From an uncultured Algibacter sp. (GTDB lineage Bacteria > Bacteroidota > Bacteroidia > Flavobacteriales > Flavobacteriaceae): a stretch of 64,000 nucleotides of DNA. Numbering within the stretch: the first letter of the stretch is position 1; each line of letters begins with the position of its first letter. Shown one piece after another: positions 13,463 through 59,632 of the stretch. Made by a program: the position numbers and the translations under genes. Location: the NCBI RefSeq assembly GCF_947487575.1, contig NZ_CANKXG010000010.1:62001-126000 (forward strand). Reading direction: 5' to 3'. The notes under the pieces are model-generated. The model made no database searches, was not told the origin of the DNA, and saw nothing but the letters and a program-made list of their open reading frames with translations.

Positions 13463-14623
13463 TTACCCCCTAAACAAAAAGAAATCGTCTTTCATGTGTT
13501 CAATTTTACCGTCTTCATTGGTAATAATATAATCAATAGCTTGAGACGTGAAATCTTCACCTTTTTCAGTTAATGATACAATGTTTTTATTAAATTGAAT
13601 CATATTGTTTTTTAAAGCTAAATCTAAAACGGTTTTTGAACGTACTTTTTGCCAATTAATGTGTTCGTTGAGGTGGTTTACATGACGTTCACGTTCTTCG
13701 GTATGGTTTTTTAAATGAAGCAAAAACGTTAATAGTGAGACTTCTGTACGTTGTTGTTTTTCACGATACATAACAGCAATAACGCCTTTATTTGGCGCAA
13801 ATAAATACACGCTTAAGAACAATAATCCTAACATAGTTGTGATTGATCCAGCAATGGAAGCATCCAACCAATGAGCTAACCAATACCCAGAAATAGCACT
13901 AAATATTCCAAAACTTATGGAATATATAAGCATGCGTTTTAAATCATTAGTTAATAAATAGGCTGTTGCAGCAGGTGCAATCATTAAGGCGACTACCAAA
14001 ATAGCACCAACAGCATCAAAAGCACCCACGGTGGTTATGGATGACACAGACATTAGTCCGTAATGAATAACTGTAGGCGAAAATCCTAAAGATGCAGCTA
14101 AACCAGCATCAAAGGTGCTTACTTTTAATTCTTTAAAGAATGCTATTAATAAACCTACGGTAATAATTAAAATACTTCCAATAATCCATAATGATTTTGG
14201 TCCTACATCAATGCCCGAAATGATAAGTCTATCAAAAGGTGCAAACGCTAATTCGCCTAATAAAACAGCATCAACATCTAAATGAACATCATTAGCATTT
14301 TTGGCTATCATAATCACTCCAATACTAAATAGAATTGGGAACACCAGTCCAATGGCGGTATCTTCTTTTACTAAGCCTGTTTTTTGAATATATTCTACTA
14401 AAACAACTGTAATAATTCCTGTAATTGCAGCCAAAAAAATAAGTAAAGGAGAATTTAAATCCTGAGTGATAAAAAAGCCAATAACAATACCGGGTAAAAT
14501 AGAATGGCTAATGGCATCACTAATCATCGCCATTTTTCTGAGCACCAAAAACGTCCCCGGAATAGCACAAGCTATAGCAACCAAACTCGCAATAAGCTGT
14601 ATTTCTATTTGTGCATTACTCAT
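13463..14623 (-). CDS. Metal ABC transporter permease with C-terminal winged-helix-like tail (second permease)
   Basis: An integral inner-membrane permease of the ZnuB/MntB/TroCD (ABC-3) family. About eight hydrophobic segments occur between residues 5 and 280 (MSNAQ numbering), with the family motif LRKMAMISDAISHSILPGIVIGF near the N-terminus. The last 90 or so residues are soluble and look like a winged-helix/DtxR-like tail (VLDLALKNNMIQFNKNIVSLTEKGEDF), as in some two-domain permeases. The ORF track starts 17 codons earlier, but ATG at 14623 (MSNAQIEIQ) overlaps the stop of the upstream permease as ATGAGTAA, so this is the better start (386 aa). It works with the other permease and the ATPase to import divalent metal. 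Confidence 0.85.
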   Translation of the reverse strand: MSNAQIEIQLIASLVAIACAIPGTFLVLRKMAMISDAISHSILPGIVIGFFITQDLNSPLLIFLAAITGIITVVLVEYIQKTGLVKEDTAIGLVFPILFSIGVIMIAKNANDVHLDVDAVLLGELAFAPFDRLIISGIDVGPKSLWIIGSILIITVGLLIAFFKELKVSTFDAGLAASLGFSPTVIHYGLMSVSSITTVGAFDAVGAILVVALMIAPAATAYLLTNDLKRMLIYSISFGIFSAISGYWLAHWLDASIAGSITTMLGLLFLSVYLFAPNKGVIAVMYREKQQRTEVSLLTFLLHLKNHTEERERHVNHLNEHINWQKVRSKTVLDLALKNNMIQFNKNIVSLTEKGEDFTSQAIDYIITNEDGKIEHMKDDFFLFRG

Positions 14624-15650
14624 TGTTTTCGTTTTGTTGGTTGTACAAATTGGATGCGGTTTTAAAGCCTTCATCAGTTAAACTCCACATGGCACCATCT
14701 AGTTTTACATAATTTTTTTGAACTAATTTTTGCAAAGTTGTTTTTGTATAACCTTGAAAATTATTTAAGATTTTAATGGCATGAGGATGTGATATGTTTT
14801 CGTGAGTTTCTGCAATATGAAACATAAACGAAAGTGTTTTTTGCAGTTTTAAATCACGGCGGTTTTTTATAAAACGGATTTGTTTAAACAATAAACCGCG
14901 ACTTGGGGAAAAAATAAAAGAAAAAATAACAAAAACACCTGCAACAATAACAATGACTGGCCCTGTAGATAAATTATTTTGACTGGCACTTATTGCTGTG
15001 CCAAAAACGCCTGAAAATGCCCCAAAAATAGCTGCTAAAAAGACCATAACAGATAAGCTATTTGTCCATTGTCTTGCCGCTGCTGCCGGTGCTAATAACA
15101 TGGCACTCATTAAAACTACGCCTACAGTTTGTAAACCTAAAACAATGGCTAATACAATAAATGATGTGATTAAAATATCAATAAACTTGGTATTGAAACC
15201 TAGTGTTTTGGTATAATCTGCATCAAAAAGCAGAATTTTAAATTCTTTCCAAAATAAAAGCAATACAAATAAACAAGCTCCTGTTACGATGGCCATCATC
15301 CAAACATCACTTTCTACTAATGTTGCTGCTTGTCCGAATAAATATTTATCCAATCCTGCTTGATTAGCATTGGGTTGTTTTTGAATGAATGTGAGTAATA
15401 ACATACCAAATCCAAAAAATAAGGATAGAATTAAACCTAAAGCGGTATCTGATTTTAAATGGGTTTTTTTAATGATACCTCTAATCCAAAAGGTGCCTAT
15501 GAGTCCGCTAACCAACGCACCTAATAACAATACATTACTGTTTTTTGCTCCAGTAATTAAAAAGGCAATAGCTATTCCGGGTAATGCTGCATGAGAAATG
15601 GCATCACCCAAAAGGCTTTGTTTTCTTAATACAGCGAAACTACCTAGCAT
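14616..15650 (-). CDS. Metal ABC transporter permease (first permease); start codon unclear
   Basis: An ABC-3 family permease. From its first Met it begins within the family motif (MLGSFAVLRKQSLLGDAISHAALPG), so the first membrane helix is missing. The same frame upstream encodes a convincing helix (TDYTLRTITLGTAILGAVTG) back to base 15761, but with no ATG, GTG or TTG. Translation may therefore begin at a rare codon (for example ATC at 15743) just after the preceding gene's stop, or the sequence differs here. The C-terminal tail again looks winged-helix-like (LQKLVQKNYVKLDGAMWSLTDEGFKT). Overlap with the second permease is ATGAGTAA. Confidence 0.8.
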   Translation of the reverse strand: MLGSFAVLRKQSLLGDAISHAALPGIAIAFLITGAKNSNVLLLGALVSGLIGTFWIRGIIKKTHLKSDTALGLILSLFFGFGMLLLTFIQKQPNANQAGLDKYLFGQAATLVESDVWMMAIVTGACLFVLLLFWKEFKILLFDADYTKTLGFNTKFIDILITSFIVLAIVLGLQTVGVVLMSAMLLAPAAAARQWTNSLSVMVFLAAIFGAFSGVFGTAISASQNNLSTGPVIVIVAGVFVIFSFIFSPSRGLLFKQIRFIKNRRDLKLQKTLSFMFHIAETHENISHPHAIKILNNFQGYTKTTLQKLVQKNYVKLDGAMWSLTDEGFKTASNLYNQQNENNE

Positions 15651-15747: not shown

Positions 15748-16287
15748 TTAAAGTTTATTAATTATCTCATCGGTTGTTTTAACTTCTACCTTGCCTTTTG
15801 TGGGAATCATATTTTTCCAAACCCAATTATAGTGGTCAATTACTTCTTTAGCTTTTAAAGAAGGTCTTTCGCCTGTTGTGTGTCCATCTTTTACAACTGT
15901 AATGTTGTAGTCTTTAGTTAATGCTGATTGTACTGTAGATTCAACACAGAAATCTGTTGCACAACCCGTAATTATTAATTCCGATACTTGTAATTTATTT
16001 AGTTTTGATTGCAGTTTTGATTTGTAAAAAACATCATTAGCATATTTATCAATTAGAATATCGTTTTGTTTTACCATTAAATCATTTAAGTTTTCCCATT
16101 CAATAGATTCTTTTTCAAATTCTCCAGTTCCAGTTCCATCATGTTGAATATAGATTACAGGTAAGTTTTTAGCGCGAAATACGGCAGCAATTTTATTTAT
16201 TCTTTGGATTATACCATTTGTGTCATATCTCGGAGTCTTAGATGTAAAAGACCCTTTTTGCATATCGATTACCAAAAGTGCTTTCAT
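15748..16287 (-). CDS. Isochorismatase-like cysteine hydrolase
   Basis: A 179-residue cysteine hydrolase. The triad is visible: Asp in LLVIDMQ (near residue 7), Lys in [13 protein letters not shown] (about 99-111), and the nucleophile Cys in [15 protein letters not shown] (about 132). The cis-peptide region TGCATD is typical. The family includes isochorismatases, nicotinamidases and N-carbamoyl amidases; it lacks the aryl carrier domain of siderophore enzymes. Its ATG overlaps the stop of the ABC ATPase gene (ATGA), so it is translated with the metal transporter. A link between this enzyme and metal uptake is inferred only from that position. Confidence 0.8.
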
Positions 16288-17063
16288 TCCTGTATACTTA
16301 CTTTATAGTTAATACCATAAGTCTTTGTTAAGTTATCATCATTAAAAATATCTTTAACAGGGCCAGTAGCAATCTTTTTCACGTTTAGAAAGGTTACCCA
16401 ATCAAAATATTCTGGAACGGTTTGTAAATCGTGGTGTACTACGATTACTGTTTTTCCTGCTTTGCGCAACTCTTTTAAAATATTGATTATGGCGATTTCG
16501 GTTGTGGCATCTACACCTTGAAAAGGCTCATCCATAAAATAAATAGAAGCGTTTTGAACCAAAGCTCTAGCTAAGAAAATGCGTTGTTGTTGTCCGCCTG
16601 AGAGCTGACTTATTTGTCGGTTTTTAAAGGGTAACATGCCAACTTTTTCAAGTGCTTCAAGAGCTGCTTTTTTTTCTTTTTGCCCAGGGCGTTTTATCCA
16701 GCCTAAACTTCCGTAAGTGCCCATTTTTACAACGTCTAAGGCTGTAGTTGGGAAATCCCAATCTACACTTCCTTTTTGTGGTACGTATGCTACTATTTGG
16801 CGCTGTTTTTCGTAGGGTTTGCCAAAAATTTCTACGCTTCCGGCAATAGGATTTAAAATACCTAAAATAGATTTGATTAATGTTGATTTACCTGCGCCAT
16901 TAGGTCCTACAATAGCCATAAGGACGCCTTCTGGAATTTCTAAATCGATATCCCAGAGTACGGGTTTATAGTTATAGGCTACAGTTAAATCGTCTACTTT
17001 TACGGCAATAGCACCTATGGAGTCAGGTGTCTCTTTTTGTTTATTATTTGTGTTTTTTGCCAT
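16284..17063 (-). CDS. Metal ABC transporter ATP-binding protein
   Basis: A 259-residue ABC ATPase of the Mn/Zn/Fe (ABC-3) type. Walker A is GPNGAGKS (53-60), the signature is LSGGQQQR (about 154), Walker B is IYFMDEPF (about 177-184), and the H-loop is VVHHDL. It powers import through the two permeases. Its neighbours are the hydrolase downstream (4-bp overlap) and the substrate-binding lipoprotein upstream, from which it is parted by 382 bp of noncoding, repeat-bearing sequence; the ATPase therefore may have its own promoter. The plus-strand ORF 17037-17312 is a shadow. Confidence 0.92.
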
Positions 17064-17445: not shown

Positions 17446-18351
17446 TTACTTTAAAGCATTTACAATGGTATTCACATTGTATTCGAACATACCTATGTAT
17501 GTGCCTTCGATAGTTCCTGCATTTCCAAGCGCATCAGAATATAATGAGCCACCTATGATGACGTTGTGGCCTTTTGAATTTACAGCCGCCTGCAACGCTT
17601 CTATGGTACGTTTTGGTACTGAACTTTCTATAAAAATAGCTTTTACTTTCTTTTCTATGATAAAAGCAGATAGTTTTTGAACATCTTGAACGCCTGCTTC
17701 GGTTGCTGTTGAAAGGCCTTGCAGACCAACAACTTCAAAATTGAATGCTTTTCCGAAATAGTTAAAGGCATCGTGTGCTGTTACTAATATGCGTTGTTCT
17801 TTTGGGAGTGTTTCTATGGTTGCTGTTAATTTTGTTTTTAAGCTTTCTAGTTGTTTTGTATAGGCTGCTCCATTGGCTTCGAAAACGGCTTTGTGTTCTG
17901 GAATGGCTTCTGAAAGTTTTTTGGTTACAAACTGTGTGGCTTGCATCCAATAATCAATATTGAACCAAATATGTGGATCGTAATTTGATGCGAAATAGTC
18001 AGAGCCTATTAGTGTGTTTTTGTCTAAAGCATCTCCAATGGCAATGGTTTTTATGTTTTTCATTTTTTCGAAAACTTCAACCAATTTGCCTTCTAGATGT
18101 AGACCATTATAAAAAATAATATCTGCGCTTGATAGCTTGGTTACATCGCCTTCGCTAGCTTTATATAAATGCGGGTCTACACCACTTCCCATTAACCCTT
18201 GTAAATTGATGTGTTCGCTACCAATGTTTTTTACCAAATCGGTTATCATTGAGGTTGTGGTAACTATGTTAAGTTTTCCGTTGGTTTGTTTTTCGTTTTT
18301 GCAACTAAAAATTGCTATTGCAATAGTAAATATTAGTATTATCTTTTTCAT
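17446..18351 (-). CDS. Metal ABC transporter substrate-binding lipoprotein (TroA/ZnuA/MntA family)
   Basis: A 301-residue periplasmic-facing lipoprotein (lipobox in IAIAIFSCKN, Cys 17). It has the cluster A-I fold of TroA-like proteins and the four metal ligands by motif: H61 (VDPHLYK), H127 (YDPHIWF), a His in TAHDAFNYFGK (about 192) and an Asp in GGSLYSDALG (about 275). Three His plus Asp fits Mn/Zn/Fe(II) binding. It lacks the long His-rich loop of many ZnuA proteins, which argues mildly for Mn or Fe. It lies 29 bp after the TonB receptor gene, so the two are likely co-transcribed and form an outer-to-inner membrane route. Confidence 0.92.
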   Translation of the reverse strand: MKKIILIFTIAIAIFSCKNEKQTNGKLNIVTTTSMITDLVKNIGSEHINLQGLMGSGVDPHLYKASEGDVTKLSSADIIFYNGLHLEGKLVEVFEKMKNIKTIAIGDALDKNTLIGSDYFASNYDPHIWFNIDYWMQATQFVTKKLSEAIPEHKAVFEANGAAYTKQLESLKTKLTATIETLPKEQRILVTAHDAFNYFGKAFNFEVVGLQGLSTATEAGVQDVQKLSAFIIEKKVKAIFIESSVPKRTIEALQAAVNSKGHNVIIGGSLYSDALGNAGTIEGTYIGMFEYNVNTIVNALK

Positions 18352-18380: not shown

Positions 18381-20645
18381 TTAGTTTAAAGTATATCTTA
18401 AACCAAAAAATAATCGTCTTCCTTGGTTTGGTGCGTAAACATACGATGGGTCGAATGTTAAAGCATAAGGGTTATTTGCTGTTGCCACAACATCTCCATT
18501 AGTATCAAATTGTACATTTTTATCAAATGGGTCATTAGAGCGAGCAATTATAAATGGGTTTCCTTCATTTGGCGTCCAATTTAGTACATTTTTTACGCCA
18601 CCATAAAATTCTAAATTTGCTTTGGTAGCGTAAGTTAATTGTATGTTTTGAATACTCCATGTTGGTGAATACTCGCTACGAGGATCTAAATTACCAAGTG
18701 TTGGCAGTCGCATTGGACCATAAATATTTCCTGTGTAATCTAACGTTAAGTTGGTAGGGAAATGTTTGTATGAAAGTGACCAAACACCTGTAAAACGTTC
18801 GGTTAATATTTGTCTGGTTTTTACACCGTTTTCTTCTTGAGATACATCTTGAAAAGTGACGCCTATTGATGCTTTTAATCCGCTATTAATTATAGCGTCA
18901 ATATTTAAGCTTAGTCCTTTGGTTATTGAATTTCCATCTAAATTACTATAAATAATCTGATTAGGATTAGTGTCGTAATCTGGTATAATGGCATTTGTAA
19001 AATAGGTATACCAGGCAGAAGCATCAAAAGTAAAGATCTGTCCGCCTTTAGTATAAAATTTCTTTAAATAATTAAGATTGATATTATAGGATTGCTCAGG
19101 GTTTAATTCGCCTTTGATGATTACATCTCTAGACCCCGTAAGGGCAGCATGCTCTTCAGTAAATAAATTAACAACTCTAAATCCTGTACCTGCATTTAGT
19201 CTTATAATGTCATGCTCTGTAGGTTTGTATCTGTAAGCAATTCTGGGCGTAAAGATAGACCCATGCCTATTGTCGTAATCATATCGAGCTCCTAAAAGCA
19301 CATGGTTTTTATCTGATAGTTTTATTTCATCTTGAATAAAAAGAGAAGGGATGGTAATCTCATCTGGATTAATAGTGGCAGTTGTATTATCATTATAATA
19401 ATTGTAGCGTGCAGCCAAGCCTAGAAGTAAATCGTGTTTTTTTAAGGATTTATCCCATATAAGTTGCCCAAAACCTATGCGTTGTTGCGCTAAGTAAGGA
19501 ATGTTTCCATAAACTGAGTTCTGATCATGATCTGAATATGAAAATTGAAAATTAATTTTTTCTGAAATTGGTAATTGGTAATTTCCAATCAACTCATAAC
19601 GCGATGTATAGATGCTTTCTCCATACACTTCATCTCCTCCTCTAAAGGTTTTGTTCCATTGCATTTCTCCGCCCCATCTATCTTCATAAAAAAAACGACC
19701 AGCCATTGAAAATAATCGATTATTTTTACGTTTAAAGTTCCATTTTTGGAATACAGAAATACGATCTTGTAAGGTTACATCTGTAAAATTATCATTGTTA
19801 TTGTCAATAGCATTTGAGTATTTGTAATAATTTGCACCAACTAAAACATCTGCTTTTTTACCAACCCGAGATTTAAAACCTAAATCGAAATTAGATTCTC
19901 CCCAACCACTTATAAAATTATCTGAGAAAAATATTGGAGCGTTTTCTGGTAATTTGGTAATAATATTGATTAATCCTCCTACGGCTTCACTGCCATAAAG
20001 CGATGAGGCAGGGCCTTTAACAACTTCTACTTGTTCAATTAAAGAATTTGGTATTCCCGATAAACCATAAACTGTAGATAAACCACTAACTATTGGCATT
20101 CCGTCTATTAATACCAATGTATAAGGGCCTTCAAGACCATTAATATGAATGTCTCCTGTATTGCAAACATTACAGTTTAGTTGAGGTCTTACTCCATTAA
20201 CATTTTGTAAGGCTTCAAAAATATTTGGAGTTGGGTTCTTTTTGAAAAAAGCAGGAGAGTATACTTCTACAGGAACAGGGCTTTCAAGTCTAGAGACAGC
20301 TTTTAGAGTTCCTGTAATAATAACTTCTTCGAGTAATTCTGATTCGGATAAATCAAAATTAATCATCAAATCTTTAGAACTTATTTTAATAGTTTTCTTT
20401 TGAGTTTGATACCCAGTAAAGGAAGCTATAATTGTATAAGTTCCTGGTTTTATATTTGTAATTTTAAATTTACCATTGTTATTAGATACTGCTCCTTTAT
20501 TCTCCCCTTTTACATAAATGTTTACAAAAGGTAAAACATCATTGTTTGAAGTTATTATTCCCGTTATGTTTTGGGCACCTGAAGAGAAACTTGTTAAGCT
20601 AATAAATAATAATATAAAATACTTCACTTGTTTTATTTTTTGCAA
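18381..20645 (-). CDS. TonB-dependent outer-membrane receptor, likely metal or metal-complex uptake
   Basis: A 754-residue receptor with a signal peptide (about 1-24), a carboxypeptidase-regulatory-like domain (ITGIITSNNDVLPFVNIYVKG, about 27-110), a plug (about 115-235) and a beta barrel ending in a Phe/aromatic-rich strand (RRLFFGLRYTLN). The plug carries an unusual Cys motif, QLNCNVCNTGDIHING, followed by the usual VEVVKGPASSLYGSEAVGG. Expression appears linked to the DtxR-family regulator: TATATTTG on the minus strand (20643-20650) directly abuts a 34-bp palindrome. It heads the unit that continues with the ABC substrate-binding protein. The ligand is not readable; metal or metallophore is inferred from context. 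Confidence 0.9.
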   Translation of the reverse strand: MQKIKQVKYFILLFISLTSFSSGAQNITGIITSNNDVLPFVNIYVKGENKGAVSNNNGKFKITNIKPGTYTIIASFTGYQTQKKTIKISSKDLMINFDLSESELLEEVIITGTLKAVSRLESPVPVEVYSPAFFKKNPTPNIFEALQNVNGVRPQLNCNVCNTGDIHINGLEGPYTLVLIDGMPIVSGLSTVYGLSGIPNSLIEQVEVVKGPASSLYGSEAVGGLINIITKLPENAPIFFSDNFISGWGESNFDLGFKSRVGKKADVLVGANYYKYSNAIDNNNDNFTDVTLQDRISVFQKWNFKRKNNRLFSMAGRFFYEDRWGGEMQWNKTFRGGDEVYGESIYTSRYELIGNYQLPISEKINFQFSYSDHDQNSVYGNIPYLAQQRIGFGQLIWDKSLKKHDLLLGLAARYNYYNDNTTATINPDEITIPSLFIQDEIKLSDKNHVLLGARYDYDNRHGSIFTPRIAYRYKPTEHDIIRLNAGTGFRVVNLFTEEHAALTGSRDVIIKGELNPEQSYNINLNYLKKFYTKGGQIFTFDASAWYTYFTNAIIPDYDTNPNQIIYSNLDGNSITKGLSLNIDAIINSGLKASIGVTFQDVSQEENGVKTRQILTERFTGVWSLSYKHFPTNLTLDYTGNIYGPMRLPTLGNLDPRSEYSPTWSIQNIQLTYATKANLEFYGGVKNVLNWTPNEGNPFIIARSNDPFDKNVQFDTNGDVVATANNPYALTFDPSYVYAPNQGRRLFFGLRYTLN

Positions 20646-20650
20646 ATATA
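20643..20650 (-). promoter_or_regulatory. -7 promoter box of the TonB receptor unit
   Basis: TATATTTG on the minus strand, abutting the DtxR-type palindrome, which therefore covers the -33 region of this promoter. Confidence 0.65.
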
Positions 20651-20683
20651 AATATATTTTTAGATTAATCTAAAAATATATTT
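20650..20683. promoter_or_regulatory. DtxR/MntR-family operator, 34-bp perfect palindrome
   Basis: The arms AAATATATTTTTAGATT / AATCTAAAAATATATTT mirror exactly around 20666/20667. The core TTTAGATTAATCTAAA has the T(T)AG...CTAA form of DtxR-family sites. It lies between the divergent TonB receptor and DtxR-family genes and covers the -33 region of both promoters, so one bound dimer pair could repress both. Confidence 0.75.
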
Positions 20684-20700
20684 TAATCTTATAATTATTC

Positions 20701-20708
20701 TATATTTG
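20701..20708 (+). promoter_or_regulatory. -7 promoter box of the DtxR-family gene
   Basis: TATATTTG, 22 bases before the ATG and 17 bases after the palindrome. Confidence 0.6.
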
Positions 20709-20729: not shown

Positions 20730-21386
20730 ATGATAACGCTCACAGAAGAAAACTATATAAAGGCTATTTACCATTTAGGAAAGTATGGTGTTGATAATGT
20801 AAGCACAAATTCTATTGCCAAAGAAATGGAAACTAAGGCGTCTTCTGTAACCGATATGGTTAAGAAATTATCAGATAAAGGATATGCAAATTATAAAAAA
20901 TATCAAGGTGTTACTTTAACTGAAGAGGGTAAAGAAATTGCGATAAATATTGTTAGAAAACATAGACTTTGGGAAGTGTTTTTAGTTGAAAAACTAAATT
21001 TCTCATGGGACGAAGTACATGAAGTAGCAGAACAGCTAGAGCATATAAAATCTAAAAAATTAATTAGTCAATTAGATGCTTTTTTAGAATTTCCTACACA
21101 TGATCCCCATGGAGATCCTATACCAGATAAAACAGGAAAAATAAATAAAATTGACAAAATTTTACTTTCTGAGACTATAATAGGAGATCAATGTATTTGT
21201 GTTGGTGTTCAAGATTCTTCATCAGATTTTTTAAAGTATTTAGATAAGAACAAGATAGCATTAGGAACAGAATTAGTGGTTTCTCACCGTGAACCTTTTG
21301 ATAATTCTATTACTATTAAAATAAAAAATAAAGAGCTAATTATATCTAATATGATTGCTAATAACTTGTTTGTGAAGGTGTCATAA
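20730..21386 (+). CDS. DtxR/MntR-family metal-dependent repressor
   Basis: A 218-residue regulator with an N-terminal winged helix (about 1-62: NSIAKEMETKASSVTDMVKKL as the recognition region), a metal/dimerisation domain (about 63-140) and a C-terminal FeoA-like SH3 domain (about 150-218). Metal ligands resemble MntR more than DtxR: H78 (RKHRLWE), E101, E104 and H105 (AEQLEHI), where DtxR has a Cys in place of E101; the N-terminal ligand position is N8 (MntR has Asp, DtxR Met). It is divergent from the TonB/ABC unit across a long palindrome and probably represses that unit, itself and feoAB when metal is plentiful. Confidence 0.9.
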   Translation: MITLTEENYIKAIYHLGKYGVDNVSTNSIAKEMETKASSVTDMVKKLSDKGYANYKKYQGVTLTEEGKEIAINIVRKHRLWEVFLVEKLNFSWDEVHEVAEQLEHIKSKKLISQLDAFLEFPTHDPHGDPIPDKTGKINKIDKILLSETIIGDQCICVGVQDSSSDFLKYLDKNKIALGTELVVSHREPFDNSITIKIKNKELIISNMIANNLFVKVS

Positions 21387-24036: not shown

Positions 24037-24041
24037 GCTTA

Positions 24042-24057
24042 TTTAGATTGATTTTAA
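24042..24057 (-). promoter_or_regulatory. Putative DtxR-type operator before feoA
   Basis: TTTAGATTGATTTTAA matches the core of the 20650-20683 palindrome at 13 of 16 positions, with one perfect half-site. It lies between the feoA -7 box and the start codon, so binding would block elongation or initiation. Confidence 0.5.
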
Positions 24058-59600: not shown

Positions 59601-59632
59601 AATAGCCATGTTTAATATTAAACATGGCTATT
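59601..59632 (-). terminator. Terminator after glmS
   Basis: AATAGCCATGTTTAAT / ATTAAACATGGCTATT, a perfect 32-bp palindrome 28 bp past the glmS stop on the minus strand. Confidence 0.8.

Follow-up and report, generated by a model that had tools for sequence, protein, structure and literature searches.

Between a gene for a TonB-dependent receptor on the minus strand and a DtxR-family gene on the plus strand, an uncultured Algibacter sp. carries a perfect palindrome of 34 bp. This arrangement raises the question of whether the palindrome is an operator and, if so, of which regulator, for how many dimers and for which genes. We analyzed the locus in a stretch of 64,000 nucleotides, hereafter the window, and in related genomes. 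The answer that we prefer, with a probability of about 0.82, is that the palindrome serves as operator for the MntR-type repressor encoded next to it, which would read the core and would not use the arms as a second reading site. The features of the locus are as follows.

13463-14674, minus strand: ABC-3 permease 2, with a C-terminal extension lacking a Pfam assignment
14616-15650, minus strand: ABC-3 permease 1, with a C-terminal extension lacking a Pfam assignment
16284-17063, minus strand: ABC ATPase, nearest to Mn/Fe transporter ATPases
17446-18351, minus strand: ZnuA/MntA-type metal-binding lipoprotein of an ABC transporter
18381-20627, minus strand: TonB-dependent receptor whose N-terminal domain is CarboxypepD_reg-like; probable start codon GTG at 20627
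20643-20650, minus strand: -7 box TATATTTG of the receptor promoter
20650-20683, no strand: 34-bp perfect palindrome AAATATATTTTTAGATTAATCTAAAAATATATTT (putative extended operator)
20659-20674, no strand: 16-bp putative operator core TTTAGATTAATCTAAA, kept among loci
20701-20708, plus strand: -7 box TATATTTG of the dtxR promoter
20730-21386, plus strand: DtxR/MntR-family regulator of 218 amino acids with Fe_dep_repress, Fe_dep_repr_C and FeoA/SH3-like domains

The regulator contains the N-terminal winged helix and the metal-binding and dimerisation domain (PF01325, 4e-17; PF02742, 7e-33) and is of the long form, with a C-terminal FeoA/SH3-like domain (PF04023, 4e-11). The TTG start assigned mechanically to the receptor gene (20645) falls within that gene's own -7 box, and the likely start is the GTG at 20627, from which the protein reads MKYFILLF..., a signal peptide; relatives have an ATG at the same place. 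The extensions of the two ABC-3 permeases (13463-15650) are about 90-110 amino acids long and appear winged-helix-like by eye. An isochorismatase/nicotinamidase-like gene (15748-16287) is flanked by the ABC ATPase gene and the permease genes, a position at which only one of the 80 loci fetched for comparison (L034) has such a gene.

Conservation and position of the core

The preliminary description of this DNA had reported a 34-bp perfect palindrome shared as an operator by the receptor and the DtxR-family gene. The palindrome is exact at 20650-20683. Its expected number per window is 2.6e-5 from the window composition versus 0.011 from the local composition, and among 60 windows simulated with an order-3 Markov model one held a palindrome of at least 34 bp. 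Length alone is only moderate evidence of function in AT-rich DNA, and conservation was therefore tested. A GTDB genome scan yielded 80 orthologue loci with regulators 60-92% identical, and every locus named to genus belongs to the Flavobacteriaceae. All 80 contain TTTAG-N6-CTAAA (most often TTTAGAYTAGTCTAAA), displaced copies included. In 71 loci the core precedes dtxR, and these 71 together with the Algibacter genome and a sister make up a 73-locus set throughout which TTTAG and CTAAA are invariant. In the other nine loci (Winogradskyella-type and Flavobacterium) the core lies 2-3 kb from dtxR; seven of these displaced cores stand at the promoter of a relocated receptor, the other two being those of L093 and L099.

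We also searched 400 genomes of the family with a pattern of the extended site, blind to gene content. Of the 27 matches, 24 adjoin dtxR and two adjoin the receptor in the absence of dtxR. One match with GCC/GGC (L191) was dropped as it is terminator-like, lying between converging genes next to a T-run. We regard this conservation as decisive in judging the palindrome functional. A chance palindrome of AT-rich DNA with no function could appeal to the one simulated window in 60, but the core kept in 80 of 80 loci and a blind search that lands beside the same genes leave this explanation a negligible probability. A second perfect palindrome, of 32 bp (AATAGCCATGTTTAATATTAAACATGGCTATT, 59601-59632), is probably a terminator hairpin.

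The two TATATTTG boxes, at 20701-20708 on the plus strand and 20643-20650 on the minus strand, bear out the claim that the palindrome covers the -33 regions of two divergent promoters. The receptor -7 box has its TA edge 16-17 nt from the operator centre in 57 of the 73 loci, and the dtxR -7 box lies 32-36 nt from this centre in 65 of 73, whereas control windows gave no receptor-type and three dtxR-type boxes. In the promoter of the TonB-receptor/metal-ABC operon the core thus falls between the -33 and -7 boxes, and in the window it is about 33 nt upstream of the dtxR -7 box. The space between -33 and -7 is the usual position of a repressor. Since the core sits there, the main predicted effect is repression of the receptor operon; the effect on dtxR would be less clear.

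A single site and its regulator

When the Algibacter genome was searched with a profile of the operator, the window site scored E=1.2e-4 and the next best 0.18, so that no second operator was found in this genome below E 0.17. Because the genome has no other strong site, the regulator is local to one uptake locus and not global. The same search of 60 relatives returned mostly one strong site per genome. The suggestion that the core defines a searchable regulon motif did not hold: ten other exact copies of TTTAGANNNNTCTAAA exist in the genome, all within genes, as are all the one-mismatch copies of TTTAGATTAATCTAAA, and a search for TTTAGN6CTAAA gave 52 sites versus 27 for the reversed control, with the nine newly read ones within genes. 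The preliminary description took a lack of other copies near metal genes as telling against its proposal; in this genome such copies are indeed lacking, but a single-locus operator is not thereby refuted. Elsewhere in the order, copies of the operator do occur at ZIP and Nramp transporter genes. In L208, one of the two blind-search matches without dtxR, a divergent gene for a ZIP-family metal transporter takes the place of dtxR and shares the operator with the TonB receptor, and in L236, from another family of the order, the operator precedes an Nramp (MntH-like) transporter. A point against the assignment to DtxR is L187 (G163), where receptor and perfect 34-bp operator are retained with no adjacent dtxR. 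Sites are also found near uvrB/Hsp20 (L224, L239 and L245).

It is very improbable that the same regulator acts through related sites on feoAB and other iron genes. The feoA promoter does carry a conserved, related-looking site (TTTAAAATCAATCTAAATAAG), but the spacer of this site is 5 bp long, its sequence is the same throughout the ten genomes of the genus, seven of which have a different DtxR and DtxR operator, and a search with the operator profile does not return it at E<=10. Identical feoA sites under different DtxR proteins led us to reject feoAB as a target of this regulator, and feoAB would therefore answer to another one, for which Fur, with three family members in the genome, is a candidate. 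The motif at the feoA promoter, TTTARA-N5-TCTAAAT (24037-24056, minus strand; the same in all ten), has further copies in the genome at C12:30276/30349, C15:13126 and C10:40774, which lie upstream of a porin-like gene (twice), upstream of sdhC, and in the interval from hemA to an AraC-type gene close to hemH. It looks like the iron/haem regulon of another regulator, perhaps Fur. As a point against our preferred reading, a Fur-family protein could also bind near the palindrome.

Within the genus, a strong operator (E<=1e-3) is present in three of the three genomes with this DtxR and in none of the seven with another DtxR, 34-36% identical, which has TTTAAGCTTACTTAAA upstream of its gene. In these seven genomes (L008-L014) the other DtxR precedes an outer-membrane protein (PF13557) in place of the TonB receptor, and beside feoB it has under it the same metal ABC importer, with the same substrate-binding protein. 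Because genomes with the other DtxR lack the operator and have TTTAAGCTTACTTAAA and the PF13557 protein with the same ABC transporter, the regulator, operator and outer-membrane component were thus exchanged as a set, whereas the ABC importer stayed. Position, conservation and this co-occurrence with the regulator at the genus level support the view that the receptor and the DtxR-family gene have one operator in common.

The closest solved relatives of the regulator include MtsR-, SloR- and ScaR-type regulators. We matched its ligand residues by eye to reference ligands (PMC4805248). The presumed primary ligands N8, E101, E104 and H105 and the presumed ancillary ligands H78, E82 and H97 are invariant in 82 sequences. 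In the Mn-specific MntR the primary site is formed by Asp8, Glu99, Glu102 and His103 (PMC4805248); here N8 replaces the Asp, and E101, E104 and H105 are present. The Fe-type DtxR site (Met10, Cys102, Glu105, His106) differs in that N8 and E101 stand in for Met and Cys. E101 is therefore MntR-like, but the Asn at position 8 (82/82) is neither MntR-like (Asp) nor DtxR-like (Met), so that the metal cannot be read off the ligands. Mn or Mn/Fe is favoured as the effector, and the ZIP (L208) and Nramp/MntH-like (L236) transporters found with the site would point to Mn/Fe. Porphyromonas gingivalis PgMntR is likewise a Bacteroidota metal regulator of the DtxR family with FeoA domains and a link to Mn transport (PMC4805248), but its FeoA domains number two and its primary site is Asp/Cys, where the present regulator has one domain and Asn/Glu. 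In Stenotrophomonas maltophilia the Mn regulator MntR governs a TonB-dependent receptor encoded next to its own locus (PMC13217887); that module belongs to another phylum, has other partner genes and sites, and includes no ABC importer.

One dimer and co-varying arms

The length of the palindrome had been taken to suggest room for two dimers. In the IdeR/DtxR family a 19-bp box binds two dimers, and its half-site, two CCTAA repeats with a 4-bp spacer, binds one, as described for Saccharopolyspora erythraea IdeR (PMC10317159). The core reads TTAGA-TTAA-TCTAA, that is, two NCTAA repeats with a 4-bp spacer, whereas the full box has four CCTAA repeats (TTAGGTTAGSCTAACCTAA) and the second, offset pair is absent here. 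In layout the core matches a one-dimer half-site. The two share the TTAGR-N4-YCTAA layout and an even-length palindrome over one dimer; they differ in TCTAA for CCTAA, in the offset pair and in the regulator, here a Bacteroidota protein of MntR/SloR type. The Streptococcus mutans SloR element is similar in its 6-6-6 layout (here TTTTAG-N6-CTAAAA), its AT-richness, its overlap with the -35/-33 region and its place at an Mn/Fe uptake promoter (PMC12096823); its half-sites differ, and SloR uses several adjacent elements where one is present here.

Two adjacent dimers on the whole 34 bp, with arm symmetry selected for binding, are unlikely in our view. Two-dimer DtxR/IdeR boxes (PMC10317159), the cooperative binding of SloR to several adjacent elements (PMC12096823) and the conserved outer AAA/TTT positions would agree with such a site. 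These outer positions, however, coincide with the receptor -7 and dtxR -33 regions, symmetric arms are missing altogether from about half of the loci, and there is no offset repeat pair. Moreover the arm triplets (TAT, ATA, CTT, CTA, CAT, CAA, AAT, ACT) vary freely between close relatives, and the varying arms stay self-complementary under near-identical regulators, which base-specific reading does not predict. The proposal of two dimers is thus not supported: the core fits a one-dimer half-site without an offset pair, and the arms are variable.

The arms co-vary. Over arm positions 9-17, 15 of the 73 loci are perfect, with seven different arm sequences (shuffle mean 2.4), and in an independent set, the 27 extended operators with unbroken arms from the 400 family genomes, the outer triplets match in 18, in nine kinds (shuffle mean 4.6), or in 17 of 26, in eight kinds, if the off-locus match is left out. 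When the left arm is interrupted they match in only one of 27 operators. Contiguous and interrupted arms differ with a Fisher p of 1.4e-6 (8e-7 with one operator per genus), a test that takes in the off-locus match and two collections that share some species. Counted from the centre, the excess of symmetry has faded by about position 15. When changes were placed on a tree, a pair was kept through a double change on 11 branches, compared with 1 to 7.5 in slid controls, which is a moderate excess. The close pair L070 and L071, with dtxR 92% identical, differs by a compensated arm change, and L067 has exactly the sequence that would result if, in its nearest relative L065, the right arm and the inverted spacer were copied onto the left side, so that one copying event explains eight differences. 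Inverted and forward spacers stand at 8:6 in perfect versus 10:26 in imperfect operators (p 0.10), which is suggestive only and was not retained as proof of template switching.

This co-variation fits the correction of quasipalindromes by template switching, favoured because the arms are arbitrary yet matching, and only when contiguous. In known cases short inverted-repeat arms become identical and the spacer can be inverted (PMC8604942, PMC8794818); these come from phage, bacterial and yeast genes and RNA genes, and here the flanks of a regulator's operator are concerned. A contiguous inverted repeat would turn symmetric most likely by occasional copying of one arm onto the other during replication. 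We consider it somewhat more probable than an even chance that the operator flanks evolve by repeated arm-to-arm copying, which would produce long perfect palindromes of arbitrary sequence without selection. Selection for a cruciform or hairpin extruded by negative supercoiling between the divergent promoters seems improbable. As a single strand the palindrome can form a perfect 15-bp stem (-10 kcal/mol, z -4.9) and the co-variation preserves pairing, but contiguous arms are missing in about half of the conserved operators, and pairing alone would not call for the invariant sequence of the core.

Proposed mechanism and implications

Most likely, then, the palindrome is the single operator through which an Mn/Fe-responsive repressor of MntR type would control outer- and inner-membrane metal uptake and itself. 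With sufficient Mn(II) and/or Fe(II), a metal-loaded dimer would sit on the 16-bp core (half-sites TTTAG/CTAAA) and block RNA polymerase at the receptor promoter, which would turn off the TonB receptor and the downstream ABC importer. The same binding would cover the -33/upstream region of dtxR and may adjust the regulator's own level.

In the literature searched we found no paper describing such an operator in Flavobacteriaceae. The analysis provides a defined, testable one for a metal-uptake locus of this family, with its outer-membrane receptor and ABC importer, and separates it from the feoAB site. As an operator it is a known kind of element, and the co-evolution of its arms is the more interesting part. 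If arm-to-arm copying is indeed at work, the length of a palindrome would be no guide to the number of repressor dimers bound, and these loci would offer a natural case of palindromic operators perfected by a mutational process, which bears on the prediction of operators from sequence.
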